Source: Paracyclopina nana (Eukaryota; Arthropoda; Copepoda; Cyclopoida; Cyclopettidae). From it: a DNA stretch of 64,000 bases. A program made the position numbers and the translations under genes. The notes below the pieces were generated by a model. The model was not told the DNA's origin and searched no databases. It worked only from the letters and a program-made list of their open reading frames with translations. The DNA lies in contig JAGUCH010000002.1 in the NCBI GenBank assembly GCA_019096065.1, positions 7,390,501 to 7,454,500 on the forward strand, given 5' to 3'. Of the stretch, positions 2,813 to 56,755 are shown one piece after another. The first letter of the stretch is position 1; every line of letters begins with the position of its first letter.

Positions 2813-4826
2813 ATGGCGACATTTCTGCGATTTCGGCCGTTGACATCCTCTTTACCTCTTATCTGTGCTCGCGAGCCAAGCCAGCGCTCATTAGCTGTTT
2901 TTAAGCCACTACTGTACAACTATTTCAAGGAACCATATCATCAGCGCTCATCCTTCACTACGGGTTGTGTAGTCTCCAGAATGGCCCCAGTTCCCGGCCT
3001 CGGGGATGAAATCACACAAGTGATTGCTGACAACGATGTCGTCGTCTTCTCCAAGACATCCTGTCCATTCTGTGTCAATTTGAAGAAGGCCTTCAAAGCC
3101 AAGAGAATTGATTTCCATGCGATTGAGTTAGATGCCTTGGGAGAGAAAGGCGTAGCGATCCAAGAAGAGCTGGCCGCTAGAACGGGCCAAAAAACTGTTC
3201 CCAATGTTTTCATCAGGGGTAGTCATAAAGGTAAGTTACATAATGTCGAAAATGCGTAATTGGTCACTGCTATTTTGACTTTAACTTTTAGGTGGCGCGG
3301 ATGCAACACTGGAACTCTTGAAAGAGGGGACCTTGTTCACTCCTCCGAAGAGAGCACATGATTACGACTTGGTCGTCATTGGTGGCGGATCTGGTGGGTT
3401 GTCATGCGCCAAGGAAGCTGCTAATCTTGGTTGGAAAGTGGCGTGTTGTGATTTTGTCAAGCCGTCCCCGCCTGGCACCACTTGGGGCCTTGGTGGCACT
3501 TGCGTCAATGTGGGATGCATTCCGAAGAAGCTGATGCATCAAGCATCACTACTGGGTGAATCGATTCACGATGCTCAGCAATATGGATGGAACCTCGAAG
3601 GCCAAGCCACGCATGACTGGCTGAAACTCGTTGACAGCGTTCAAGGCCACGTCAAGTCTCTCAATTGGGGCTATAAAGTCCAACTGAGGGAGAAAAAAGT
3701 TACTTACCTCAACGAGCTGGCTAAGTTTACATCTTCGGACAAGTTGGAACTCACCAACAAAAAAGGAGCTAAGAGAGAGATCACAGCTTCCAACTTTGTT
3801 GTAGCTGTTGGGCTTAGACCAAACTATCCGGATATTCCTGGAGCCAAGGAATTCGCCATCACCTCTGATGATATTTTTAGCCTTTCCTACAACCCTGGCA
3901 AAACTCTACTAGTAGGGGCCAGTTACATTTCCTTGGAATGTGCCGGCTTTCTCAAAGGTTTGGGCATCAATGCCACCATCATGGTGAGATCTATCCTCCT
4001 TCGAGGCTTTGATCAGCAAATGGCTGACAAGGTTGGTCAGTACATGGAGCAAGTGGCTGGCATTGATTTCATCAGACCCTGTGTCCCTACTAAGATTGAG
4101 CAACTGGAGCCGGGATCACCTGGCAAGTTGCGAGTTTACGGAAAATATGACGATGGCACTGAGTATACCGATGATTTCAACACGGTCGTGTTTGCAATTG
4201 GAAGAACAGCCGACACTGACCAACTTGGATTGGAAGCTGCCGGAGTTAAAACTGATCCAAGGTCGAAAAAGATTTTGGCTGATGACGCCGAGAAAAGCAA
4301 CGTGGATAATATTTATGCCATCGGTGATGTTCTCGAGGGAAGGCCGGAACTAACTCCTGTAGCCATACAAGCGGGCAAGTTGCTTGCTAGGAGGATTGTA
4401 GGGTCAAGCAAGGCAAAGACTGACTATGGACTTATCCCTACCACTGTATTTACTCCGCTGGAATATGGTCTGTGCGGGCTATCTGAAGAAGAGGCCATTG
4501 CCAAGTTTGGCGAGGAGTCAATTGAGGTGTACCATTCTAACGTTTGGCCTTTGGAGTGGACCGTCGCGCACAGGTCTGAGAACTCCTGCTACGCAAAGCT
4601 GATTGTCAACACAAATGATGACGAGAGAGTGGTTGGCTTTCACTACCTCGGCCCTAACGCTGGAGAAATCACTCAAGCTTTCGCTGGGATGCTGAAACTG
4701 AAGGCGACCAAAGCAGACTTTGAGAACCTGATTGGCATTCACCCCACCGTGGCTGAAATCTTCACCACCATGAACATAACCAAGTCATCTGGCATGGATG
4801 TTAGTGCTACTGGATGCTGAGGTTAA
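2813..4826 (+). CDS. Thioredoxin-glutathione reductase, selenoprotein (glutaredoxin fused to thioredoxin reductase)
   Basis: NADPH/FAD disulfide reductase that keeps thioredoxin reduced and, through its glutaredoxin head, can act on glutathione substrates. Two exons: 2813-3230 and 3292-4826. Residues about 1-55 are basic and hydroxylated, resembling a mitochondrial presequence. A second ATG at 2981 (MAPVPGLGDE) could give a cytosolic form. The glutaredoxin domain follows with a CPFC active site (TSCPFC). Then comes the FAD motif GGGSGGLSCAKEAA, the redox pair GTCVNVGCIPKK and the dimer interface GIHPTVAEIFTT. The frame reaches TGC TGA GGT TAA, so the C-terminus reads G-C-Sec-G, the classic TrxR/TGR tail, if UGA 4818-4820 is recoded. 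A SECIS-like hairpin lies 90 nt downstream. An automatic annotation would lose the last two residues and the active-site Sec. Confidence 0.95.
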
Positions 4827-4904
4827 TTTCACCTGCTGATTTATTATCAGCAGGCTTTATAAATCTGAAGCTTGGTTGTGCATTGCTTTTAGCTCATTTT
4901 TGAG

Positions 4905-4960
4905 CAAAATGACGAATCAGTTGGAAACCTTCATTGAAGGCCAATTGGATTTTGATGAAA
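4905..4960 (+). promoter_or_regulatory. SECIS element of the TGR selenoprotein mRNA (predicted, type 2-like)
   Basis: The hairpin has the SECIS layout. ATGA at 4909-4912 forms the 5' half of the non-Watson-Crick quartet. It is followed by 12 nt (CGAATCAGTTGG) and an AAA run at 4925-4927 that supplies the conserved unpaired adenines. A ministem (CCTT/AAGG) tops the structure. A 3' strand CCAATTGGATTT leads to TGAT at 4953-4956. The two 12-nt strands pair mostly with each other, with one A-A and one C-T mismatch and some G-T wobbles. Position and spacing after the UGA codon fit known eukaryotic SECIS elements. I folded it by eye only. Confidence 0.85.
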
Positions 4961-6143
4961 AAAGTGTGCACGACTATAAGGCTTCGCAGAGACTAACATT
5001 ACGATAAGAAGGTAATAAAATATGATTTTTCAAGTTATCACTACATTTCCTTTGCAAATATTTTGCACTGTTAAGCACAATAGTGAAGAAGCATTTCAAA
5101 TAAATAAGAAAAAATTATATATTGTCCCAAAAGATGGTCTTTCCTGACTTCACACTATTCATTAGCTCAATATTTATATTTTTTGTATTTTTTGTTTGAG
5201 TCAGGTTTTTTGCTCTGTTTCGCTAAGTTGCTTACACAGCAGCTAGCTGCAGTTCTAATTTATGGCTTTCCACGCTTTCATCGGTTTTATAGAGGAGCTA
5301 GCTGGGACTTTAGTGGGATTTGGTGGCAGCTCTGGCACATTTGATAAGCTTTATCGACTGAAGAAGTGGAAATGATGGCAAAACATTTTGTTGCAAAAGC
5401 ACTGATGATGCTTTCCGTCAAAAAATGAGAGCTCTTCCGAAAGTGGCCAGTGCAAAAGATGCTAAAAGCAAGCTGCCTGTCAAAGTCAGTAATACACGTA
5501 GTCTATGGAGTGGATGACAAATGAGGCCAGATTTTTTCCCTTGCTTTGGCCAGCATAAAATGCTAGGTTTTTTGTTTATTTCCCAAGTCAATAATTTAGC
5601 TACATTTACTTCCAACGCCGCAAACTCCTCAGGAAACCCCACACGCCTCATTGGCCCGCATTTTCTTCCAACAAAGATTGTGCTGTTCTTGTGAAGGCTA
5701 CTGCGCGTGCAATTACGTCATTATGATGGTATGCGAGCACAAATGCACAAAAAATATACCTCGCCATGACAAATTGATGTCATGACCACTGCATACGTAT
5801 GCTGACACTTTTATGACCATGGACATCTGGCCTCCCCAAAAAAGTCCACTTTATTTCCAACTATGTCAGCCTTTTTGCGCTTGATACTGCAACCAGCCCC
5901 CTTGATAAAAGGGGCCACATGATCTCTAGTGCTTCTAGTACAATTTAAAGAATAGGATTTTTTATAGATGAAAAAAAGGATACATTGCGGCGGCGGTGGT
6001 GCATCATTCATCTTAGTGATATGATAGTAAAAATTCATGCTCCATAAACCCCTCCATGATTATATGGGGTTGAGGAAAATGAGATCATAAAGATTTGAGC
6101 TGTTTTTCATTGAGGACAGGACAGAATTTGATTACATTTTCAG

Positions 6144-14518: not shown

Positions 14519-17500
14519 TTAGGACTTCTTTAGCCAGTCAATCTCCAGGTCCAATAGGTCCAAATCAAGATCATTGTCCAACGGAGACAACGTGACCTCA
14601 ACACAAACTGCCCTGTCGTCTCTTTGCAAAAAAGGGTCTTCAGAGTTGTGACCAGCATTTGCTGAGCAGTCTTTGAAATGCTTATGGAGATCTGTTGCAT
14701 AGATTTCTCGCCTGCAGCTGGAGCATTTAGGAATGTGGCACTCATTCCCTTTTCGATGCGAGGCCAAAGCTGACAAGTCGGGCACTAATAACCCACAGTG
14801 AGAGCAAGACAGCCACAGTTTCTCGATGGCTTCATGGTGGTGGCAAATGGCGTGTTCAACCATGGCCAACAAGTGCTCATCTTGTACCTCAGTCATCTTG
14901 AAGGATAGGGAGCAAAACACGCATTGAATCGTATCGCACTGGGAGCGATGTAAATTAAGCTTGATTTTGGTGGGAAAATAACTTCGGCAGCCTGAACATT
15001 GATGCCACTGTTGAGTCACCTCAACTTTATGGGTTTCCTGAGCATGGCTGGAGTAATCGTGGTACTTTTTGAATACCGCAGGGCAAAAGGTACATTCAAA
15101 TTTGTTGCATGATCGCTCGATGTGCTTTTTCAAGTGGCTCAGAGTTGGGTAGTTGATCCCACAGCTTGGACAGGCCAACCACGCATGTAAGACTTGCTGG
15201 GTGTGCAACTGTCTCGCATGCTCGAAAGCCTTGTAGCCGCTCTCAAAGTCAAGGGAGCAGATATAGCACTTTTTTGCAGTTGTTATACGGCTCTCGCATT
15301 CTGGTTCATGCTGTAGACCTTCTTTTTTCGTAGCAAAGACAGAGGCACATCTGGAGCACCCGAACCAGCTTTGCGCTACGATATCCATGTGGCAATGCTT
15401 GGTATGTTGCATCCTGTTGTTGCGGTCATAAAACGACTCGGTGCAAAATGAGCAGTCGTACTTGGGACCATCGCCCAGAATGTGAATTTTGGTGACATGA
15501 TCTTCAAGAATAGCCTCCGAGCCGAATTCCATGGAGCAAAATTTGCATTTTTTCCGTAAGCTTTGTGCAATTGGCATCGCATCTGAGTGATAAAACTCCA
15601 TATGGGTCCTCAAGTCTTGCGAGTCGACGAATGTGGCAGCACAGCTTTCGCATGCGAGCTTTTTGCAGTGAGATACGTGCCTAGCAAGATTGTCATCGCT
15701 CTGGAAGTATGCCTTGCAATTTGTGCAAAGATAATTGAGTTTTGAAAGCTCACTCAAATGCTTCGAGTTGAGATGCTTATTCAAGTTTCGACGACAAACA
15801 GTTGCTCCACAATAAGGGCAGTCACTTTTCTCATTTTTTCGTGTAATGCTTGCATAATTCTCTGGTGCTATGCCTGACTCGGTAAGTTCATTCTGATCAA
15901 CTTCCATCGGCTGAGGTAGTTCTTTCGCAGCACAGCTGTGAGAAAAGTCCCTTTCAGGCAAATAATTCCCACAAGAGGAGCACGAGAAGCCAAGACTCTT
16001 AATTTGCTCGCGATGGCTTGAGTTCAAGTGTTGCAGTAAGGCATCGTTACATTTCCAAGACTTCCAACTCATGCAGTAATTGCACTTCATTGGCGCTTTC
16101 AATGCCTTGATCCTCAAACAAGACTTACGGTGAAAGGCGTATATAGTAGCATCAGGCATGAAACAGCCGCATTCATTGCATTTAATGCCCACCAGTGAAA
16201 CAGCATCCCTGTGCTGATCATTGACATGTCTGATATAGCATCCAGAAAAGTTTGATTGGAAATCCTCGCAAAATCGACACTTGTGCTTTTTTTGCACTTC
16301 TAAGGTTGAACACGGCTCAGTACACTCCATGGCGTGCATGTTAAAATGTTTTCCTTTGGGCAGGTACTTCTCACAGCCGCTACATTCAATCCACATCTGA
16401 ACCACTTCGGTGAAATGTTCCAGATTGGCGTGGTTTGCGTAGTCATTGAACGTCACGAGAACTTTATTGCAGAACTCGCACATGAAGTTTCTGCAGCTTT
16501 TGGCGTGCTTTGGGCTCTCTTCTGGAAAGTGCAGTCCGCAGCTTTCACAAGCATGCCATTGCTTCAACACCTGTTGGCGGTGATAAGTACGGCAGTGGGC
16601 GATTAGCTTTTCCGGAGTTTCGAAATCAACACTATCAGGGCAAAATTGACATCGAACAACACTCGCGCAGGCCTTCTTGTGCTCATTGAGTAGGGTACTT
16701 TTCGGGAAACGTTGGAAGCAACTAAGGCAACAGCCCCACGATTGATTCACTTCGTTTTCGTGGCTAGTTCTAGCATGGTCGAGCATCCCTTGAACGGAAT
16801 CCGCGCGAAAGCTACAAAATGAGCATCTTGAGTCGCACGAACTGATCATGTGGATATTGAGGGAGTTTTCATCGGGGAACATGATATTGCAGTTTGGACA
16901 TCTTGTCCAGCATCGATCAACAGCAGCCTTGTGGAGCTTTCGCATGTGGGAGAGATGACGGTTAAAAAATTTTGTTTTGTGACTGCAAAACTCGCACTGA
17001 ATCCAAACGATCGTCTTGCAATGCACTTTGTGGTTGAAGAAGATTCTGCTTTTCCGGGGGAACAGCTCCGTACACCCACTACACTGTATCCACGTTTTTA
17101 CAGCCGCTTCAAGGTGATTCTGCTTGACATGCTGCAAAAGTTCGTCGACGGAATCCAGTGCATGGTAGCAAAAAGTGCAAGTCAAGTCGAGGCACTCATG
17201 ATCAGGCTTCGGACAATATTCTAGGCACCTCGAGCACAGTTGCCAATTTTGCTCAACTTGCTCAACGTGCAATTTGCGAGCATGACTCAACAGCAGAGAT
17301 TCTTTCGTGAAGGATTTGGGGCAAAACTGGCAATGGTGGCTCGCAGAGCTGCATTGATCCTTGTGAGTAAAAAAGCTTTTACCAATTTTCGGAAAGGCTT
17401 GACTGCACCCAGTGCAAGTGATCCATGTTGTGTCTCTTGAATGGATTTGTCTTGCATGCTGGAGAAAGTCATCCATTGATGCACATACTTGGTGACAAAA

Positions 17501-17986
17501 TTCACATTCCCAACTTTGGCATTGGCACTCATCTGTGCACTTGCAGCAATTGTTGTTGGCAGCTGATTCAGCAAATGGCTCGATGTCTTCATTCTTTTTG
17601 CATACTTTAGCGTGCTCCTCAATGATCTCAGGAGCAAAATGCTTTTCGCACAGCCGGCATTTCTCCCAAACAACCTTGATTTCTTCAGGGTGAGCCTTTC
17701 GACAATGGACGTAGAGAGCGTTTAGATTTTTAGTTTTGAACGACCGGGGGCAAAAATCACACTTTTTCAGAACTTCAGGCGGACGGCCAGTTATCTTCTT
17801 CGAGCATAATTTTTCGTGAGCTTTTAAGATATCAGGAGCAAACAGCTTATTGCACAGCTGACATTTATCCCAGATCGCTCGAATTTCCTCAGGGTGGGCT
17901 CTGCGGTAATGCACTAAAAAAGCAGAGAGCTTCTTTCCCACCTTAAGCCATCGATCGCAAAACTGGCACTTTTTCTTATCCTCCAT
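14519..17986 (-). CDS. Large intronless protein of about 17 paired C2H2/C2HC zinc fingers
   Basis: A single exon encodes about 1155 residues, built almost wholly from a repeat of roughly 55-60 residues. Each unit has a first finger C-x2-C...H-x3-5-H, a short link usually ending in Trp, then a second finger C-x2-C...H-x4-6-C. Examples are CEFCNKVLVTF then WIECSGCEKYLP, and CTFCPAVFKKY then WHQCSGCRSYFP. I count about 17 units, some degenerate. The C-terminus is acidic (DNDLDLDLLDLEID). I chose the ATG at 17986 because the frame upstream has no ATG. The linkers are not the TGEKP type, so DNA binding is uncertain; RNA or protein binding is possible. I recognise no named orthologue. It converges with the MAGUK gene, with about 210 bp between stops. 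Confidence 0.85.
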   Translation of the reverse strand: MEDKKKCQFCDRWLKVGKKLSAFLVHYRRAHPEEIRAIWDKCQLCNKLFAPDILKAHEKLCSKKITGRPPEVLKKCDFCPRSFKTKNLNALYVHCRKAHPEEIKVVWEKCRLCEKHFAPEIIEEHAKVCKKNEDIEPFAESAANNNCCKCTDECQCQSWECEFCHQVCASMDDFLQHARQIHSRDTTWITCTGCSQAFPKIGKSFFTHKDQCSSASHHCQFCPKSFTKESLLLSHARKLHVEQVEQNWQLCSRCLEYCPKPDHECLDLTCTFCYHALDSVDELLQHVKQNHLEAAVKTWIQCSGCTELFPRKSRIFFNHKVHCKTIVWIQCEFCSHKTKFFNRHLSHMRKLHKAAVDRCWTRCPNCNIMFPDENSLNIHMISSCDSRCSFCSFRADSVQGMLDHARTSHENEVNQSWGCCLSCFQRFPKSTLLNEHKKACASVVRCQFCPDSVDFETPEKLIAHCRTYHRQQVLKQWHACESCGLHFPEESPKHAKSCRNFMCEFCNKVLVTFNDYANHANLEHFTEVVQMWIECSGCEKYLPKGKHFNMHAMECTEPCSTLEVQKKHKCRFCEDFQSNFSGCYIRHVNDQHRDAVSLVGIKCNECGCFMPDATIYAFHRKSCLRIKALKAPMKCNYCMSWKSWKCNDALLQHLNSSHREQIKSLGFSCSSCGNYLPERDFSHSCAAKELPQPMEVDQNELTESGIAPENYASITRKNEKSDCPYCGATVCRRNLNKHLNSKHLSELSKLNYLCTNCKAYFQSDDNLARHVSHCKKLACESCAATFVDSQDLRTHMEFYHSDAMPIAQSLRKKCKFCSMEFGSEAILEDHVTKIHILGDGPKYDCSFCTESFYDRNNRMQHTKHCHMDIVAQSWFGCSRCASVFATKKEGLQHEPECESRITTAKKCYICSLDFESGYKAFEHARQLHTQQVLHAWLACPSCGINYPTLSHLKKHIERSCNKFECTFCPAVFKKYHDYSSHAQETHKVEVTQQWHQCSGCRSYFPTKIKLNLHRSQCDTIQCVFCSLSFKMTEVQDEHLLAMVEHAICHHHEAIEKLWLSCSHCGLLVPDLSALASHRKGNECHIPKCSSCRREIYATDLHKHFKDCSANAGHNSEDPFLQRDDRAVCVEVTLSPLDNDLDLDLLDLEIDWLKKS

Positions 17987-18319
17987 TACAAGCCTTTTAA
18001 CCACGTTTGGACGATTCTCAGCAACATCTTCAGCTGATCGGAGTCAAGGGCGCAGGAGCCAGGAAGAATCGGGATAAAATAGGTTGAGTGAGTTCTGAAC
18101 GAGAATGACTGTCTTTGGGTCAAAGCCTCATTTCACGGAAAGTATATTTTCTCTACCGGTAACCGAAAATCCCTGGTTAGGTTTCAATTTCCAAATAGTT
18201 CTCAGTTTATTTCTCTACCAAGACTAGCATATAACAAGGAAAAACGAAATGTAAACAAATACATTGGGAATTTTTTTCCCGGGAAAAAAAATCACCAGGC
18301 GAATTTTTTCCCACACAAT

Positions 18320-45708: not shown

Positions 45709-48700
45709 TTACTCGCAGTCCATTTTATTGAGTGATTGCAATCTTAGCTTCACCTTGCGGGCTTTGTCCTTGATGGCTGCATCAGTAGCAAGGTCCTTGA
45801 TAACATCATCTAAACTCTTTCCAATTCGCTCTTGGAAGCTGCCAATGGATACCGGAGACTTTTCTATCACATCAGTCGCCAATTCAAGCACATTCAAAGC
45901 CTCCGTTCTCAATTGGCTATTCTTGGGCATCGACAGCAGATATGCTAATGCACTGCAAAGGTTCTCTATCACCTGTTCATCAGTCTGGGGATTCAGGTTG
46001 TAGGAAGCAACAATTTGGCCCACCGTTTTCGCTATGACCAACTGGATTTGCCTCGTGGTGTTCTGCACCATGGCAGTCAGCACAGACAGAAACTCGATCA
46101 CAAATTTTGACTGAGTCTCGGGATTCTCAGGCCAAGCTTCGCCAAGACATTCCACAGAAGCCGACTGCAAGTCAAGGGAGATGGTTTCAACAGACTCTGT
46201 AGGAGCTTCCTCCTTCTTGGCATCGTCCATTGCCTTTCTTATAAAAGGGAGAAGCATTTCATACAAGTCTTGAAAATAATCCAAATCCAAGGCTCTCAGA
46301 ATTTTTCCTGTGGATTTGAGTGCAACGATCTTGTACTCCATTCTTTCCTTGGCACACTCCCGGAGAAGACACTTGATAAACACTTCTTCTGTGAGTGGGT
46401 TGTCTGCATTCGCCATCATGCTGAGGACATTTTCAGAATTGCAGCAAACGAGTTGCTGAATTGCCTCCAGGATGGCTTCTTTGCCCGACCAAGTTCTGCC
46501 GGCCAAAGCTTCAATCAGCTGAATTATCATCATACCCTGCTCTTTTTCAGATATCTGGCTTTTCAGCTTGGTGCCAACAGCCCCCATAGCCCTAGCAGCC
46601 TGAGATTTCATTTTCCACTGTTGGGATTCTAAAGCCATTGAGAGAAGGCCCACAATTTCTTTCATGTATAGTCTAATGCCCGATTCTGTGCCAGGGGTAC
46701 AATCGGTCCACACCTCGTCCCACACATCCAGAATTTCTGCATTTGTCTCATTCTTGGGCTCATGCATAGCCAAGAAAGCGATTGGCATTGCTTGAGCCGC
46801 ATGTGCCTTCATTTTGTCTGGATTGTGCCTCGTGATTGCTTGAAAGGTGAAAGCCACTGACCACTTGGTGGAATCGTCATCCTTCTCCATGTACCAGGTT
46901 TTCAGCTTGGCAAATAGCTTTTCGACTGACGAGTCTTTGGCAGTTTTCATGAGGTGGCCAATAGCTGAGGCATAAGTTTTCCTCACAGCTGGGTTCCTAT
47001 CACTTAAGCCTGCAACGAAGGCAGCCAAAATCTTGCCAGTATATGACTGTAACTCCAAGGGACATTGATGAGTCAGCAACACGATGACATGAGCTGCTGT
47101 CCCCTTCGTCCCCAATCCAACGGAACTCTTGATCAAATCAATTAACTTTGGCACCAGTTGTGCCAAAATGTCCCCATCAACAAACTGAAGGACATAATTG
47201 ACACACTCCATCATTGGAGATCCTTTGGCGACGGCGATCCTTGCAAGATCCAACTTTTCTTGGACATTGGCATCATTGGCAAGCCTAGTACTCATATAGC
47301 TCATTTCCTTCGACTCCATCTCACTGGTGGCTTCCAGCAAAGCAGGGATGAGTTGACTCAGGTGTCCTCTCAGCATTGGCCCTGCACTCTTGGAGATTTT
47401 GACCACAATGTGCAAGGCAGCTGCCCTCACCTCAGACACAGAACTACCGAGCCCCTGAAATTTGAACAGTATTTGGCTGACTCGTGAAAATATACATTTC
47501 ATGGTAATATGCATTTTTACCTTATCCAATATAACCGGTAAGATAGCTTCTATAGCTTCTTTGCTTCCCTTGGCTCCAGATTGGTTGGAGTCTGCCATTT
47601 TGATGCAAGTCCTACTCAGTGCATTGACTGCTTTGCCAGCAGCTAATCTCACGCTCTCCTTTATGTCATCCATGACCCTGAACAAATCAGCCCAAATGCT
47701 GGGGAGAACAGAAAGAGCTGGCCCAGTAAGAGATCTCCCTCGAACAAGATCTTGAATAGCAACGCAACATGATTCTCTCACTCTCCATTGGTTGGAGGTC
47801 AAGTTGGATTGCAGCTCTTGCACGATCTCCATCAAGTACTTGTCAACGGTTTTGGTAGGCTCTGATACCAAAGAGTTCCAAATGGAGGTCATGGACTGTT
47901 GAATCTTGGGAGTTGGGTCAAATTGGTAACGATACAACTTAGGGATGATTTTAGGCAAGTGCGGCTCCAATTGCTCACCTGCTTGAGCAGCAATAGTTCC
48001 AAATCCAAAAGCTGCTCCCTTTCTGGAGTTCCACATAGCGTTATAGTTAGCCAAGTGCATGAACTTGTACACCAAATCTGGCTGGTTCAAATCACTAGCC
48101 AAGGAGCAGAGTTCCCTGTAGGTGGACAGGTTTTCACCAGTTGGTGCCCTACCCAGCTCCTTTTCGTCAAAGAGTTTTGTATCGTCGGACACTTTTTTGA
48201 CGCTCTTTTGACCCTCCATGAGGGTCGACAGCAAAGTCTGCACCATCTTATCCCTGAGGTCCTCAGAGCAGCTCTCATAAACTAGACCAAGTCCTTTGGA
48301 TGCTGCATCTTGTACAAGGTCATTGTTATCACCTAGTAACCCCATAAAGGCAGACTGAACTTTCATTAGGCTTTCCTTGACGAGCTGATGGTGCTTAGCC
48401 TCATTGACCAAGGCCAGTAGCCATATGCAGGAGGCTTGCTTCTCATTGGGATGCGTACTAGTTGTGTACTTGCCAGTGAGTTCGTCAAGCACAAATTTGA
48501 TTTCAGCGTCAGAGGCATGAGCATCAACATTAGCTGGCTTGTAGGCATCAGGTGAAACAACCCACAAATTTCTTCCCTTGGGACTGAGCGGACCCATTGT
48601 AGCATACACAAGGGCCTCTCCAATAGTGAAATGTAGCTCTATGTCCTTGACATCTTTCGCGGATTCAAGAAAACCCTTGATCACCAACTCCCTCCACGGA

Positions 48701-51270
48701 AATTTAGGATCCCCTATGCAGAGTTGCCCCAAGGCAAGAGCAGACCTTTCCCTTATTTTCATTGACAGCTTCCCATTGAGAGCAATCTCAAGGAGTCTTT
48801 TAACCAGAGCATTTTTACTGGAGGTCTCTCCATCATCAGGGAGAGGAAGAGGTCCACACCTCCCAAGTTCACCCAAAGCTAGGCATGCAGCCGACAAGAG
48901 CATGGCATGACTGTCAGGTTGAAGTTGCTCAAGCAGAAGTTCAACAGCTTGCTTGAATTCAAACAATGCCAAAATTGGGAAGCTGTCAACCATCATCATT
49001 TTAGAGCTGAAGCTATATGCCAAAGCTAAGGTGGCTCCATGCTTCGCTTCTTGTTGCTTCTCCTTGAATCCCTTAGCAAGATCAGAGATGGAGGCAACGA
49101 ATTCAGACTGATCTGTATGGCTAGCAGTCACAAGACCAAATAGTTGAGCTGACACCTCGCGAAACTCTTCTTTCATGTTGTTCAGCAAGTTCTTCAACCA
49201 AAGCCTTTTGGGCTGGAATTTGGCACGCCACTCAGGCATTGGAGAGCAGCCCAATAGTTGGAGCAGAGCTTGAGCCTGAGCAGTGTCTTGGCTAGCAGTC
49301 AAAAAGGAATCACACAAGTCAATAAGCTGTTGAAGCATACTCTTTTTCACATCGTCAGAAGCCACAAATTCAAGCAAGTATTCAGACACCTTAGGAGCCT
49401 CAACGTATGGATCGTTGAGCATGTCCAAATGTGGCACTACTCCCGCATTATAAATGAGGCACATTCTCAGGTAATTCAGGACTTGAGTGAGAACTGCAGC
49501 AGTGAAAGGCAACGTGTTACTGCCAATAATCACCTTTTGCTGAGTCTTGATTCTAATATTGGCCTTTTCTATCACCAGTCTGGTCATCTCAAGAAAATCA
49601 GGCAACAGTAGCTGACCTTTGTTGAGGTTAGGTGATTGGTCAGCTGAGTTAGCCTTATTGATGGCACCATATAAATGGAGCTTAGCCTCGGCCCTGACCT
49701 CATCATGGACATCTCCAGCTCCGAGCAAAAGTACAAACTTCGAAGGTGTGTGGGAAGGGGGGAAGACCTCGCCAGCATACTGAACAGCCACAAGTCTGAC
49801 TTGATGTTCATGATTTTCAATGTAGGTCCCAAGCAGGGCTTCCATCATCTTCAAGTTTTTGCTATCCATGGCTTTAAAAGCTGATGCCATCATGGACAGC
49901 GCCTCTTGGACCGACATTTGCGTCTCTTTGTCTTCGGATGACATTGCTTCAAAAAAGGTCTGGATGATGGTGATGTCTTTGTTGACTAACTTGGGCAATT
50001 TCAGACCCAGTTTTCCAATGGCCACATAGCAAGAAGCCCTGAGCTTGGCGGCGGCTTCTTTTTCAGAATTGGTCATCTCCTCTTCATCAGTCTTGGGCTT
50101 GTTTGACACTAGGGAGTTCAGAGCTGAGAGCAATAAATAGCCGCATGAAAGCAGCATTGACTCTGGGCAATTTTCAACAACCCTGTGGACAAATTGAATT
50201 GCCATGGTTTTCAGCTTTGCATTTGTGTTGCTGCCGGAGACAATGAGCAAATCAAAGATGACTTGCATCGAGAATGAAAGTGTTATGCTCGCCTCTCTCG
50301 ACCTTAGTAGGTAGGGCATCAACTTCAACCTAAGTCTCGTATTAGCTGGCACCCTTTTGTTTTCGGGCCTTAGCTTAGACTTGTCCTTGACCATCTTCTC
50401 CGAGCCTAAAAAGACACTGTACAACTGATACACTAGATCCTTGTTCTCCCAATCAATGCCACCGGAAAATCGTCGCATCACAGTATCAGCTTCTGTTGAC
50501 ACACTATGACGAGTATCAGCCATCCCAATGACCAGGTGCATGGCAATATCTTTATCAGGCAGCAAACCATTGCCAAAGAATTTCATGACATTCACCTTCG
50601 CCTTCTCCAGCTCTTCTGGCTTCATTAAGCTATCGCCAGCTACCCTTCTCCAAGCTGATTCACTGAGGCCAGGTGGAATTTGAATTTGATCGTTGGGGTC
50701 GGCAGGTTTGATGCTTGGGTGTGACCCATAAGGCAAAAGAAGGAAATCAAATAAGAAATCCTTGAAAAGCTTGAAAATGAAAGGCTTCTCGTCCAGTTTG
50801 AAAAATTTCAATTTGGCTTCTGGATCATCGGTTGGTGCCTTCACATATTCAAGGCAAGGCAAAATCATTCTCAGCAAAGGTTCTTGGTGGGTTACTGGCT
50901 TCCCCTCTAATGACAGCAGGATCTTTGGTATTAATGCAACTTTTTTGTCTACTGGCATCCTCGGAAACCCCATTTTTATATAAATGATGGTGAAGTTGGT
51001 GACAAAAGTGTTCAGAGATTGATCTTGGTACTGATCAAGCAACGCCTCCATGGGCAACTGAACGTTGTTATTGCTTTTGGCTCTTTTGTTGATGTGAACC
51101 AAGAGTTCCATGACTTTCTTTCTAACAGATTCATGGGGCGATCCAAGCCTTATAAGACTAGGAGCCAAACCTTTATCCAATGCTTTAATTAAGGCCTCAT
51201 CAGAATCGGAAGCTGCAAGCCTGAAAAAGAACTTTTCAAGCTCAGCCTTCTCCTGTTCTTCTTGGGACAT
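45709..51270 (-). CDS. ECPAS: Proteasome adapter and scaffold protein ECM29 (ECPAS)
   Basis: A HEAT-repeat solenoid that binds the 26S proteasome, monitors its assembly and links it to endosomes and motors. Two coding exons on the minus strand, 51270-47521 and 47454-45709, give 1831 residues, near the human length. Diagnostic stretches are the start ELEKFFFRLAASDSDEALIK, the block AIQFVHRVVENCPESML, SSDAWKDPE-like HEAT motifs, and GLGSSVSEVRAAALHIVVKI just after the intron. The 66-bp intron (47455-47520) has no in-frame stop, so it can look like coding sequence. I removed it because it breaks the conserved DKG..VSEVR alignment. A TTTTCAG acceptor three bases before the ATG implies a 5' UTR intron. 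Confidence 0.95.
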   Translation of the reverse strand: MSQEEQEKAELEKFFFRLAASDSDEALIKALDKGLAPSLIRLGSPHESVRKKVMELLVHINKRAKSNNNVQLPMEALLDQYQDQSLNTFVTNFTIIYIKMGFPRMPVDKKVALIPKILLSLEGKPVTHQEPLLRMILPCLEYVKAPTDDPEAKLKFFKLDEKPFIFKLFKDFLFDFLLLPYGSHPSIKPADPNDQIQIPPGLSESAWRRVAGDSLMKPEELEKAKVNVMKFFGNGLLPDKDIAMHLVIGMADTRHSVSTEADTVMRRFSGGIDWENKDLVYQLYSVFLGSEKMVKDKSKLRPENKRVPANTRLRLKLMPYLLRSREASITLSFSMQVIFDLLIVSGSNTNAKLKTMAIQFVHRVVENCPESMLLSCGYLLLSALNSLVSNKPKTDEEEMTNSEKEAAAKLRASCYVAIGKLGLKLPKLVNKDITIIQTFFEAMSSEDKETQMSVQEALSMMASAFKAMDSKNLKMMEALLGTYIENHEHQVRLVAVQYAGEVFPPSHTPSKFVLLLGAGDVHDEVRAEAKLHLYGAINKANSADQSPNLNKGQLLLPDFLEMTRLVIEKANIRIKTQQKVIIGSNTLPFTAAVLTQVLNYLRMCLIYNAGVVPHLDMLNDPYVEAPKVSEYLLEFVASDDVKKSMLQQLIDLCDSFLTASQDTAQAQALLQLLGCSPMPEWRAKFQPKRLWLKNLLNNMKEEFREVSAQLFGLVTASHTDQSEFVASISDLAKGFKEKQQEAKHGATLALAYSFSSKMMMVDSFPILALFEFKQAVELLLEQLQPDSHAMLLSAACLALGELGRCGPLPLPDDGETSSKNALVKRLLEIALNGKLSMKIRERSALALGQLCIGDPKFPWRELVIKGFLESAKDVKDIELHFTIGEALVYATMGPLSPKGRNLWVVSPDAYKPANVDAHASDAEIKFVLDELTGKYTTSTHPNEKQASCIWLLALVNEAKHHQLVKESLMKVQSAFMGLLGDNNDLVQDAASKGLGLVYESCSEDLRDKMVQTLLSTLMEGQKSVKKVSDDTKLFDEKELGRAPTGENLSTYRELCSLASDLNQPDLVYKFMHLANYNAMWNSRKGAAFGFGTIAAQAGEQLEPHLPKIIPKLYRYQFDPTPKIQQSMTSIWNSLVSEPTKTVDKYLMEIVQELQSNLTSNQWRVRESCCVAIQDLVRGRSLTGPALSVLPSIWADLFRVMDDIKESVRLAAGKAVNALSRTCIKMADSNQSGAKGSKEAIEAILPVILDKVKMHITMKCIFSRVSQILFKFQGLGSSVSEVRAAALHIVVKISKSAGPMLRGHLSQLIPALLEATSEMESKEMSYMSTRLANDANVQEKLDLARIAVAKGSPMMECVNYVLQFVDGDILAQLVPKLIDLIKSSVGLGTKGTAAHVIVLLTHQCPLELQSYTGKILAAFVAGLSDRNPAVRKTYASAIGHLMKTAKDSSVEKLFAKLKTWYMEKDDDSTKWSVAFTFQAITRHNPDKMKAHAAQAMPIAFLAMHEPKNETNAEILDVWDEVWTDCTPGTESGIRLYMKEIVGLLSMALESQQWKMKSQAARAMGAVGTKLKSQISEKEQGMMIIQLIEALAGRTWSGKEAILEAIQQLVCCNSENVLSMMANADNPLTEEVFIKCLLRECAKERMEYKIVALKSTGKILRALDLDYFQDLYEMLLPFIRKAMDDAKKEEAPTESVETISLDLQSASVECLGEAWPENPETQSKFVIEFLSVLTAMVQNTTRQIQLVIAKTVGQIVASYNLNPQTDEQVIENLCSALAYLLSMPKNSQLRTEALNVLELATDVIEKSPVSIGSFQERIGKSLDDVIKDLATDAAIKDKARKVKLRLQSLNKMDCE

Positions 51271-52138
51271 GATCTGAAAAAACAAATGAGTAAAAACAAA
51301 ACGACGTTCAATACGCTGAAGCACTTACTAAAACTTATACAATGATAGACAATTGCCCCGCTTCAATGACTTGGCATTTGTAAGTTGGTCGGTGTTGTTG
51401 ATAAATTTGTTTTCAACTTGGATTGCCAGGGTTACCAGAAAGTGTGTAAAAAAGAGGACAACTTTTTCCCAATAATTCTTCCAAAATCTCCTCATTTATC
51501 CAAATGATAGAAAAGTAGGCAAAATTAAAATTTCCCGAGCCAAGAAAACAACGCATATGTGAGTTAACTTTAGCTTGATAAACATTTGAAATTGTCCACA
51601 TAATTTTTGATCACTCGATAACTATGATTATTGAATTCATGGCGCCAAATTCAAATTGACTCACTAAGTGCCTTTTTTAAAATTCCTCTCAAAATAGAGG
51701 TAATCGCCTCAAAAGTATCTCTGAAATAAGCGATAAATGCAATTAGCAATTCAACCTAAAAATATTATGCACAGCATGGTGGTCGCATGCCTAACTAAGA
51801 TGAATTCGACCACCCCAACATGTATATGTTTGCTGATAGGCCTTTCATTGCAATTGGGCTTATAAGGAGTGCAAATGGCTAAATCAATTTCCGGCACCCA
51901 TCACCACATAAGAATTGGAAAAACTGCTGGCGCTTCACAAGCTCATTTTTAGGGAGAAGTACTACTAAATAGACCAGCCCTAAAAGAAAATGCAGATAAG
52001 TTATTTTAAAGTAACTAACGGTTTAGGCAGTAGCGGTTTTCTAATTATTATGAAATGATAGGCGAAATTGATTTAACAATTTAAACACCCATGAAGCAGG
52101 GTTGCAGAGGTTAAAAAATGTAACCTATTTTGAGGCAC
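51271..52138. other. Upstream region of ECM29
   Basis: About 870 bp of AT-rich sequence carrying the ECM29 promoter and probably its non-coding first exon. No other gene supported. Confidence 0.4.
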
Positions 52139-54086: not shown

Positions 54087-56755
54087 ATGGACTCGAACAA
54101 GATGACTGAAATGAAGCAGAAGAGCAACGGTAAAGCTTTAGAGGAAGTGGTCACCCTTCAAGCATTAGATGGGGAAGAAGAAACCAAAGACGACTACATC
54201 GGCTACGGCTACAAAAAGGTAGAGATCATCGCCAATATATATTGTTGTCATTCAACTTATGAGATAAATTCTTTAAGGACAAAAGCCTTTCTGTGAACTG
54301 GAATTTGCCCGTATTGGGCGTTCTTAGATTCAACCCTGTCGTGTCTGCCATTTCCATCGGCCTCATTTGGGCCTTCGTCATAATATGCATTGTTTTCAAG
54401 CAAGATGTCCCATTTAGTGATTGGAAAAGATTCATTGTGGACAAATTTACTTGGCTTTACATTGGTAGTCAAGACATCTGGGCCATTTTCGCCATTGTCC
54501 TCTACTTTAGCAAGTATGGCAATCTGAAATTGGGCAAGCCAACAGATACACCTGAATACAATGATGTAACATGGTTTGTGATGCTTTTTGCCTGTGGCAT
54601 AGGCGTAGGGCTGTTCTTCTATGGGGTGGCTGAACCAGTCTTCCATTATGTGGGGCCTAACAGGTGCTAATTACTGCTATAATCTTTTATTCATAACATG
54701 CACATGTGACCTTTGATTAGGTATACCGCTGACCCTACCATACCAGACAACACCATAGCTCAGATTGCCATCAATCTGACTCTTTACCACTGGGGAATTC
54801 ACGGCTGGATAGTCTACTGCCTGGTGGGCCTTTTGTTGGGCATGATGGCCTACCGTGAAAATCTCCCCATGACCATGAAGTCCTGTTTCTACCCTTTGAT
54901 TGGGGACCGAATTTTTGGATGGATTGGCGATGCAATCGATACCATTTCTGTTCTCACGACTCTCTTTGGAGTGTGCACAAGTTTAGGTCTTGGCACTAAG
55001 CAGCTCAACTATGGATTCCACATTGTAAATAGCGATATTGCACCAGATGACATTCATATCCAAGTTGGCATAATTTGGGGCATCACAGCCATTGCCACCG
55101 TCTCCACAGTGACTGGCATTGGTATGGGCATTCGCAGACTCTCTGAGGTGTGCTTTGGGTTTGGCATGTTTCTCATGGTGATTGCCCTGTTCATGGACAA
55201 GACTTTCTACATTTTGAATTTGCTAGTGCAATCATTGGGATACTATGTGCAATACATCATCCAATTGGGATGGCACACTGATGCATTTGAGCAACTTGGA
55301 CCCTCCGCTCACACAGAAATGGGCCGGTTTGTTCCTGATTCATTTTCGAAGCCGGATGGTCCAAAAGAATGGATCGATGACTGGACAATGTTCTATTGGG
55401 GTTGGTGGATCTCATGGAGTCCCTTTGTGGGGATGTTCATAGCCAAAATTTCAAAGGGCAGAACCATAAGGCAGTTCATCAATGGAACACTGACTGCTCC
55501 TGTCTTGTATTCCATTGCTTGGATGGTCATATTTGGAGGAGCAGGCATCAGAATGGAAAGGGAAGCATCCGTGGCTGGGTATTGCTGCCCTCCCCAAGGC
55601 GATGGCTGGTTTTTGCCCGCCAATGAGTCCCTGTTGATGATCAACCAAAGAAATTTGACATACTCAGCAATTGAAGACCAGGGATCATATTGGCTTTGTG
55701 ATGATGGAGAATGTGGAAGCTGCGCAAAAACTGTGCTGTCCATGAAGGCACAGCAGAATGCGACTTATCTGGACTTTTTCAATGATTATGCAGAACTGAA
55801 ATCCGACTTTGGATCCACAAGCACTGATAGGTCTTTGAGCAAATTATCATGCCACGATACCGAGCAAATGTGGTTTGATGTGATGAGATCATACAGTGGC
55901 ATTGGCACGTTTCTGTCAGTTTTTAGCCTGTTTGCCATCGTCCTCTATTTTGTGACTTCGTCTGACTCAGGGTCCTTGGTCATCGACTGTTTGAGTGCAA
56001 ATGGTGATCCCGATCCTCCGCACATACAAAGAGTCTTTTGGGCTATAATGGAAGGGGCAACAGCAACTGCATTGTTGGTGGCAGGTGGCAAAAAGGGCTT
56101 AACCGCGCTGCAAGTACGTTAATCAGATGTTAAAGTTAAAAGTGTCAATTGAATTTTTTTGTAGACTGCTGGTGTAATAAGTGGACTACCCTACACTATA
56201 GTTGTCTGCTGGATCTGTGTGGCGCTCTGGAGATCCGTTCAAGTAGCTGCTGGCGATCTTGACCCTTTTGGTCCCAAATTTGCGATTGGACTTTTTGACT
56301 GCTGGGCAGCCCACCCAATGAAATCTTTGGCCAAGAACAGAAAGGAAATCATGAGACTCTTTGGCAAGTTTATTTTCAATATTTTTGCAGCTCCTTGGAC
56401 AATAGCTGCAGCCAATGCTCGACTTAGTGAAAGTGACAAAGTTTGGAAGTATGCAATTATCCCAGTTTTTACATTTGCCATGACCATAATTTTGCACATT
56501 GCTGAAATTGGTTGCAATGGATGCTGGGCTATCGCATGGTTCTTCTACCTTTGCTTCGCGTCTTATGCCGCATCAGTTAGGCTTCAATGTAGGTCTAAGT
56601 GTGGCATCCACGGAAACCCTTTTGAGGACTTTTTTGCTGTCCTATTCATGTACCCGAATGTTGCTGTGCAACTTGATGAAACAACTGCAGCCATAGGAAG
56701 GCGAGTGGACCCAGAGGATGATGCTAAAGGCACCGAAAATCCCGGTTATGACTAA
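54087..56755 (+). CDS. BCCT-family transporter (betaine/carnitine/choline type)
   Basis: A multi-pass membrane transporter of trimethylammonium compounds. Exons 54087-54218, 54278-54663, 54721-56113 and 56165-56755 give about 833 residues. The family core is unmistakable: WFVMLFACGIGVGLFFYGVA, EPVFHY, the aromatic substrate-site stretch DWTMFYWGWWISWSPFVGMF and the conserved KISKGRTIRQFINGT. SSDSGSLVIDCLSANG follows in a late helix. A long extracellular insertion with cysteines (GYCCPPQGDGWF, CDDGECGSC) and sequons such as NATY and NLTY distinguishes it from bacterial members. N- and C-terminal tails are charged. The introns show that it is a resident nuclear gene. BCCTs are mainly bacterial with sparse animal members; the substrate here is inferred. 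Confidence 0.95.

Follow-up and report, generated by a model that had tools for sequence, protein, structure and literature searches.

A probable UGA-encoded thioredoxin-glutathione reductase with a dithiol glutaredoxin domain in the copepod Paracyclopina nana

The window, by which we mean the whole 64-kb stretch of Paracyclopina nana DNA that was analysed, carries near its start a gene that the first-pass annotation had described as a selenoprotein of the thioredoxin-glutathione reductase (TGR) type, with a glutaredoxin (Grx) fused to a thioredoxin reductase (TrxR), UGA recoding and a SECIS element. The features of this locus are as follows.

2813-3230, plus strand: exon 1, which covers the leader (residues 1-56) and the greater part of the glutaredoxin domain, including CPFC at 84-87 (from the sequence and the predicted splice, the Pfam PF00462 match at residues 76-138 and the position of the motif)
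2981-2983, plus strand: second in-frame ATG (Met57), at the position where flatworm TGR chains start in the alignment
3231-3291, plus strand: predicted GT-AG intron of 61 nt (GTAAGT...TTTTAG), placed where the unspliced frame stops
3292-4826, plus strand: exon 2, encoding the end of Grx, the thioredoxin reductase module and the Gly-Cys-Sec(UGA)-Gly tail, with the TAA stop
4818-4820, plus strand: UGA, probably read as selenocysteine (Sec), the penultimate residue, from column alignment with solved TrxR1 and TGR tails
4832-4854, plus strand: perfect 9-bp hairpin, a possible redefinition-like element (surrounding stretch 4818-4865, z -4.46)
4867-4985, plus strand: extended basal helix beneath the SECIS, which the predicted minimum-energy fold forms between 4867-4890 and 4960-4985
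4898-4961, plus strand: candidate SECIS element with AUGA at 4909-4912, an AAA apical bulge with a mini-stem and UGAU at 4953-4956 (Rfam RF00031 and folds)
5014-5019, plus strand: candidate poly(A) signal AATAAA, 3' of the SECIS, read from the sequence

Pfam matches were found in 8 of 10 neighbouring stretches, namely phosphoglucose isomerase, guanylate kinase, JmjC, DUF1308, WDR54, an HCO3 transporter, a BCCT transporter and ceramidase. The minus strand holds an intron-free open frame of 1871 codons at 45712-51324, presumably related to the proteasome adaptor ECM29, and another of 1174 codons at 14522-18043 with C2H2-like zinc-finger spacing; these uninterrupted frames point to intron-poor genes, although others in the window look split. 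BCCT transporters are a mostly prokaryotic family, and the one at 54710-56119 on the plus strand is of the betaine/carnitine/choline type (PF02028, 369.4 bits), with open stretches on either side that look like further BCCT exons. The ribosomal protein eL21, spliced by eye, matched the PDB chains 9bh5 (225.0 bits), 4v6w (223.7), 6xu6 (221.3) and 22tu (207.8), the last being the chain with most entries; we take the first three to be from C. elegans and Drosophila and 22tu to be mammalian. As the comparison is that of one short protein, it hints at Ecdysozoa only weakly.

The first-pass annotation mentions no intron, but the frame does not run unbroken from 2813 to 4826: read unspliced, the frame from 2813 runs into a stop at 3257-3259, within the predicted intron. 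Taking out 3231-3291 restores both the frame and the linker KGGADATLELL, and the joined exons comprise 651 codon positions if the final TAA is counted, the tail codon being the sole in-frame TGA. The predicted product has 650 residues and the gene appears intact. Further upstream, repeated GTGGTCG-type motifs can be seen by eye at 2139-2159 and about 2570-2660, together with one perfect 9-bp stem.

The product starts with a 56-residue leader (6 R, 2 K, 0 D, 2 E and 7 S), followed by a dithiol glutaredoxin domain, a thioredoxin reductase module and Gly-Cys-UGA-Gly-stop. The CPFC glutaredoxin claimed for the N-terminus is indeed there, with PF00462 at 60.5 bits, CPFC at 84 and TVPNVF at 128. The reductase carries GGGSGG at 170, CVNVGC at 210 and GIHPT at 621, and Pfam matches Pyr_redox_2 and the dimerisation domain in addition to Glutaredoxin. 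NCBIfam TIGR01438 (thioredoxin and glutathione reductase) is matched with 709.5 bits against a cut-off of 475.85, which together with CVNVGC and GIHPT identifies a large TrxR-type pyridine nucleotide-disulfide reductase that uses FAD and NADPH.

Comparison with solved structures leads to the same family. The PDB match tables give molecule names only, without species, and we take 22fc, 2x8c and similar chains to be flatworm, 1h6v to be rat, 7p0x to be a filarial TrxR and 2nvk, 3dgh and 3dh9 to be fly. The top match, chain 22fc (703.3 bits), spans residues 1-594 of the short form (chain 1-598), while for the TrxR 1h6v the match covers the reductase part and scores 687 bits. When the 487-residue reductase is searched alone, TrxR1 chains come first (677.5 bits), then flatworm TGRs (637.2), with 7p0x (627.5) and insect TrxR and TrxR2 (564-570 bits) further down. 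With Sec written as Cys, alignment to a flatworm TGR, which had been proposed as a check, gives 52.1% identity to the S. mansoni enzyme over 599 columns, and identity to rat TrxR1 is 60.8% over 492 columns. Our searches for other relatives covered viral and prokaryotic (GTDB) collections: the GTDB genomes yielded five distant relatives of the reductase part, 33-37% identical and titled Prochlorococcus, Synechococcus and three Legionella, which were set aside, and a pattern search of viral contigs gave three matches, none of them a relative.

The key question is how the UGA in the tail is read. The reading frame closes with GGA TGC TGA GGT TAA, exactly as first noted, with TGA at 4818-4820 and TAA at 4824-4826, so that at the codon level the UGA occupies the place of Sec in a Gly-Cys-Sec-Gly tail. 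Among five solved chains aligned, four extend past the UGA column: 22fc, 2x8c and 1h6v end in GCCG and 22ey in GCXG, with C or X, respectively, in the UGA column, while 4la1 stops at GC, one residue earlier. The GC-UGA-G-stop of the window protein falls on the same column as these tails. UGA is of course the standard stop, and if it acted as such here the enzyme would end in ...SATGC, as a truncated reductase without Sec, possibly from a decaying gene. Termination would cost only the last two residues, the catalytic Sec among them, and the catalytic role of Sec in TrxR is well established. We consider true termination very unlikely, as no other stop interrupts the 650 residues of the spliced frame, the checked motifs are in place, and the single Gly codon and stop that follow the UGA reproduce the GC[C/X]G ends seen in four of the five chains.

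Alternatively, the UGA could be read by ordinary readthrough or under a reassigned code, with Trp, Arg or Cys inserted. In 13 open stretches of the window no in-frame TGA occurs in 5822 codons, and TGA follows two of the 13; these stretches were chosen for being open and some may end in introns, which makes the count weak evidence. With that reservation, UGA does not serve as a general sense codon in this DNA, which argues against reassignment, as does the presence of a SECIS match, and of the two alternatives to Sec this one appears to us the more improbable.

An ATGA/AAA/TGAT element had been described 90 nt downstream, and it is present: its ATGA begins at 4909, which is 88 nt downstream of the UGA and 82 nt downstream of the TAA, and its TGAT at 4953. 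Rfam RF00031 (SECIS_1) matches at the expected place and on the expected strand with 19.8 bits, short of the gathering score of 35, and a default Rfam scan of the 64-kb window returned nothing above gathering scores. Of the three Rfam matches in 4700-5200 it ranks first, with an E-value of 0.37 over 4227 families, corresponding to a single-family E-value of about 9e-5 (0.37 divided by 4227). The alignment puts AUGA, AAA and UGAU on the conserved letters of the model, and the spacing fits. The hallmarks of a eukaryotic SECIS, namely a 3' UTR location, an AUGA/NGAN quartet and an apical AA, are thus found, although the score is low. The low score is a point in favour of true termination at the UGA, while the existence of a SECIS match downstream speaks against it. 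The distance of 88 nt falls within the 51-111 nt that the consulted part of a study reports as the minimum UGA-SECIS spacing for Dio1, and is shorter than the 207-5207 nt that it gives for mammalian selenoproteins (PMC3316567).

Folding gives a less tidy picture. The 89-nt fold at 4891-4979 has a z-score of -2.52, with 4 of 200 shuffles equally stable, and keeping the quartet unpaired gives -19.9 kcal/mol against -21.9 unconstrained, the expected basal helix being absent from the constrained fold. In the optimum fold of 168 nt (4818-4985) the first two UGAU bases are paired and a 5-bp hairpin (4892-4905) occupies the internal loop on its 5' side, so a functional SECIS fold would need to differ locally. 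A loose SECIS pattern is passed by 11 ATGA sites in the window on both strands (the gene's own, eight others on the plus strand and two on the minus strand), and in 15 Markov simulations by 1-7 sites per simulated 64-kb strand; the pattern is therefore weak on its own. The top helix score of 9 is reached by three sites, among which only the gene's site ends in TGAT. The identification of the SECIS thus rests on the covariance model and on position.

The region between the UGA and the end of the SECIS helix is unusually stable as a whole. The 168 nt have a folding energy of -60.2 kcal/mol, where shuffles average -36.1 (z -6.68), the stretch 4862-4985 has a z-score of -4.88, and 4818-4865, which holds the hairpin at 4832-4854, has one of -4.46; none of 300 shuffles was as stable as either the whole or this last part. 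The hairpin begins 11 nt past the UGA and 5 nt past the TAA. A stable hairpin so soon after the UGA could stimulate ordinary readthrough, in favour of the insertion of a standard amino acid. It also resembles the Sec redefinition elements of SELENON and SELENOT, described in the available text as stem-loops shortly 3' of the UGA-Sec codon (PMC8704476), but differs from them in sitting beyond the true stop. With the Sec codon penultimate, a redefinition element has to sit in the 3' UTR. Perfect 9-bp stems with loops of 3-8 nt are listed 12 times in the window, some nested, against 0-6 in five Markov simulations; they are not very rare here and therefore the placement of the hairpin after the UGA is suggestive only, a lead. 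It is conceivable, though in our opinion doubtful, that the hairpin acts as a Sec-redefinition element and forms, with the SECIS on its long basal helix, one compact recoding module within 168 nt from the UGA. If the hairpin proves to be conserved, it would offer a recoding aid for tails of the TrxR type that can be tested.

Both in-frame ATGs noted earlier, at 2813 and 2981, are present, each with A at -3 and G at +4. Met57, encoded at 2981, aligns with the first residue of chain 22fc, and leader-bearing and leaderless forms are therefore plausible, as would be mitochondrial and cytosolic forms arising from the two starts. In flatworm parasites TGR variants from a single gene are known, with mitochondrial as well as cytosolic ones reported in E. 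granulosus, as far as the consulted part of the source goes (PMC2873472).

Taking domain content, tail and SECIS match together, the selenoprotein reading is the best one, and the original proposal is borne out: we put at about 0.93 the probability that the gene encodes an animal thioredoxin-glutathione reductase whose penultimate UGA is decoded as selenocysteine via a 3' UTR SECIS. By homology, NADPH would reduce FAD, which would then reduce the CVNVGC disulfide, and the Cys-Sec pair in the partner subunit's flexible C-terminal tail would then receive the electrons. It would hand them on either to thioredoxin or to the CPFC glutaredoxin domain of the enzyme itself, and this domain would act on glutathione disulfides. 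Likewise, the SECIS in the 3' UTR would recruit Sec-tRNA and eEFSec, with the penultimate UGA then read as selenocysteine. No tRNA genes were found by ARAGORN in the 64-kb window.

A separate question, compatible with Sec decoding, is that of origin. The TGR architecture could be genuine and yet have arisen in this lineage by new fusion of Grx to a TrxR1-type reductase, rather than by inheritance from an old animal TGR. The Grx part scores 78.3 bits against the free glutaredoxin 5zvl and less against the Grx of 'Thioredoxin reductase 3' 3h8q (56.3) and flatworm TGR chains (48.1), and the reductase part is, as described above, closest to TrxR1 (677.5). However, for the Grx of S. mansoni TGR, used as a control, the top match once flatworm TGRs are set aside is also a free glutaredoxin (2e7p, 68.4 bits), so this pattern is not specific and the score ranking does not support a new fusion. 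In addition, a Grx-containing ancestor has been proposed for vertebrate TR1 and TGR in the part of the source consulted (PMC3316567). We therefore regard a new fusion as unlikely.

Grx-TrxR fusions had been attributed to flatworms and mammals, where they are indeed known, but available excerpts show a wider range, which takes in fish TR1, carrying Grx (PMC3316567), and filarial nematodes (PMC8914392). The copepod protein shares with the TGRs of Schistosoma and Echinococcus the Grx-TrxR fusion, the dithiol CxxC Grx, CVNVGC, the GCUG-type tail, the position of the short-form start and, from the part of the source seen, the 3' UTR SECIS (PMC2873472). It differs in having CPFC where S. mansoni has CPYC, and one predicted coding-region intron against the 17 exons given there for the flatworm genes (PMC2873472). 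With mammalian TXNRD3 (TGR) and TXNRD1 it shares the reductase module (60.8% to rat TrxR1) and the tail, whereas the Grx of mammalian TGR has CxxS and the major form of mammalian TR1 is without Grx, according to the sections consulted (PMC3316567). The filarial nematode enzyme likewise combines a Sec TrxR with a Grx-like fold at its N-terminus; the match to 7p0x does not begin until query residue 66, and the filarial Grx-like domain is described in the portion seen as lacking Grx motifs (PMC8914392), in contrast to CPFC and TVP here.

Among arthropods, Drosophila TrxR chains belong to the same reductase family (2nvk, 3dh9 and 3dgh at 568-570 bits) but match from query residue 101 or 105 onward, without the Grx part, and the D. 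melanogaster enzyme is a Cys version, as stated in the excerpt consulted (PMC2500217). The Sec TrxR of the shrimp Litopenaeus vannamei, likened here by description only, has CVNVGC and the GCUG tail, and the passages available on it mention no Grx domain (PMC11898193). Similarly limited sources report 20 predicted selenoproteins in the centipede Strigamia, with selenoprotein loss placed at the insect base (PMC4244043), and SECIS hits in tardigrade ESTs (PMC2768748). In the literature on invertebrates, arthropods included, that deals with TGR or with a Sec TrxR carrying Grx, to the extent that it was available to us, no ecdysozoan dithiol-Grx TGR is described, which does not prove absence.

Given the known animal Sec TrxRs and other selenoproteins, a Sec TGR in another animal is expected rather than surprising, and the gene, which encodes a familiar antioxidant enzyme, is ordinary in kind, an added member of the known animal TGR selenoprotein family. 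What it adds is a UGA-encoded TGR with a dithiol Grx which, set among ecdysozoans against the Cys TrxR of Drosophila and the Sec TrxR of shrimp, would help to map where the fused selenoenzyme was kept.
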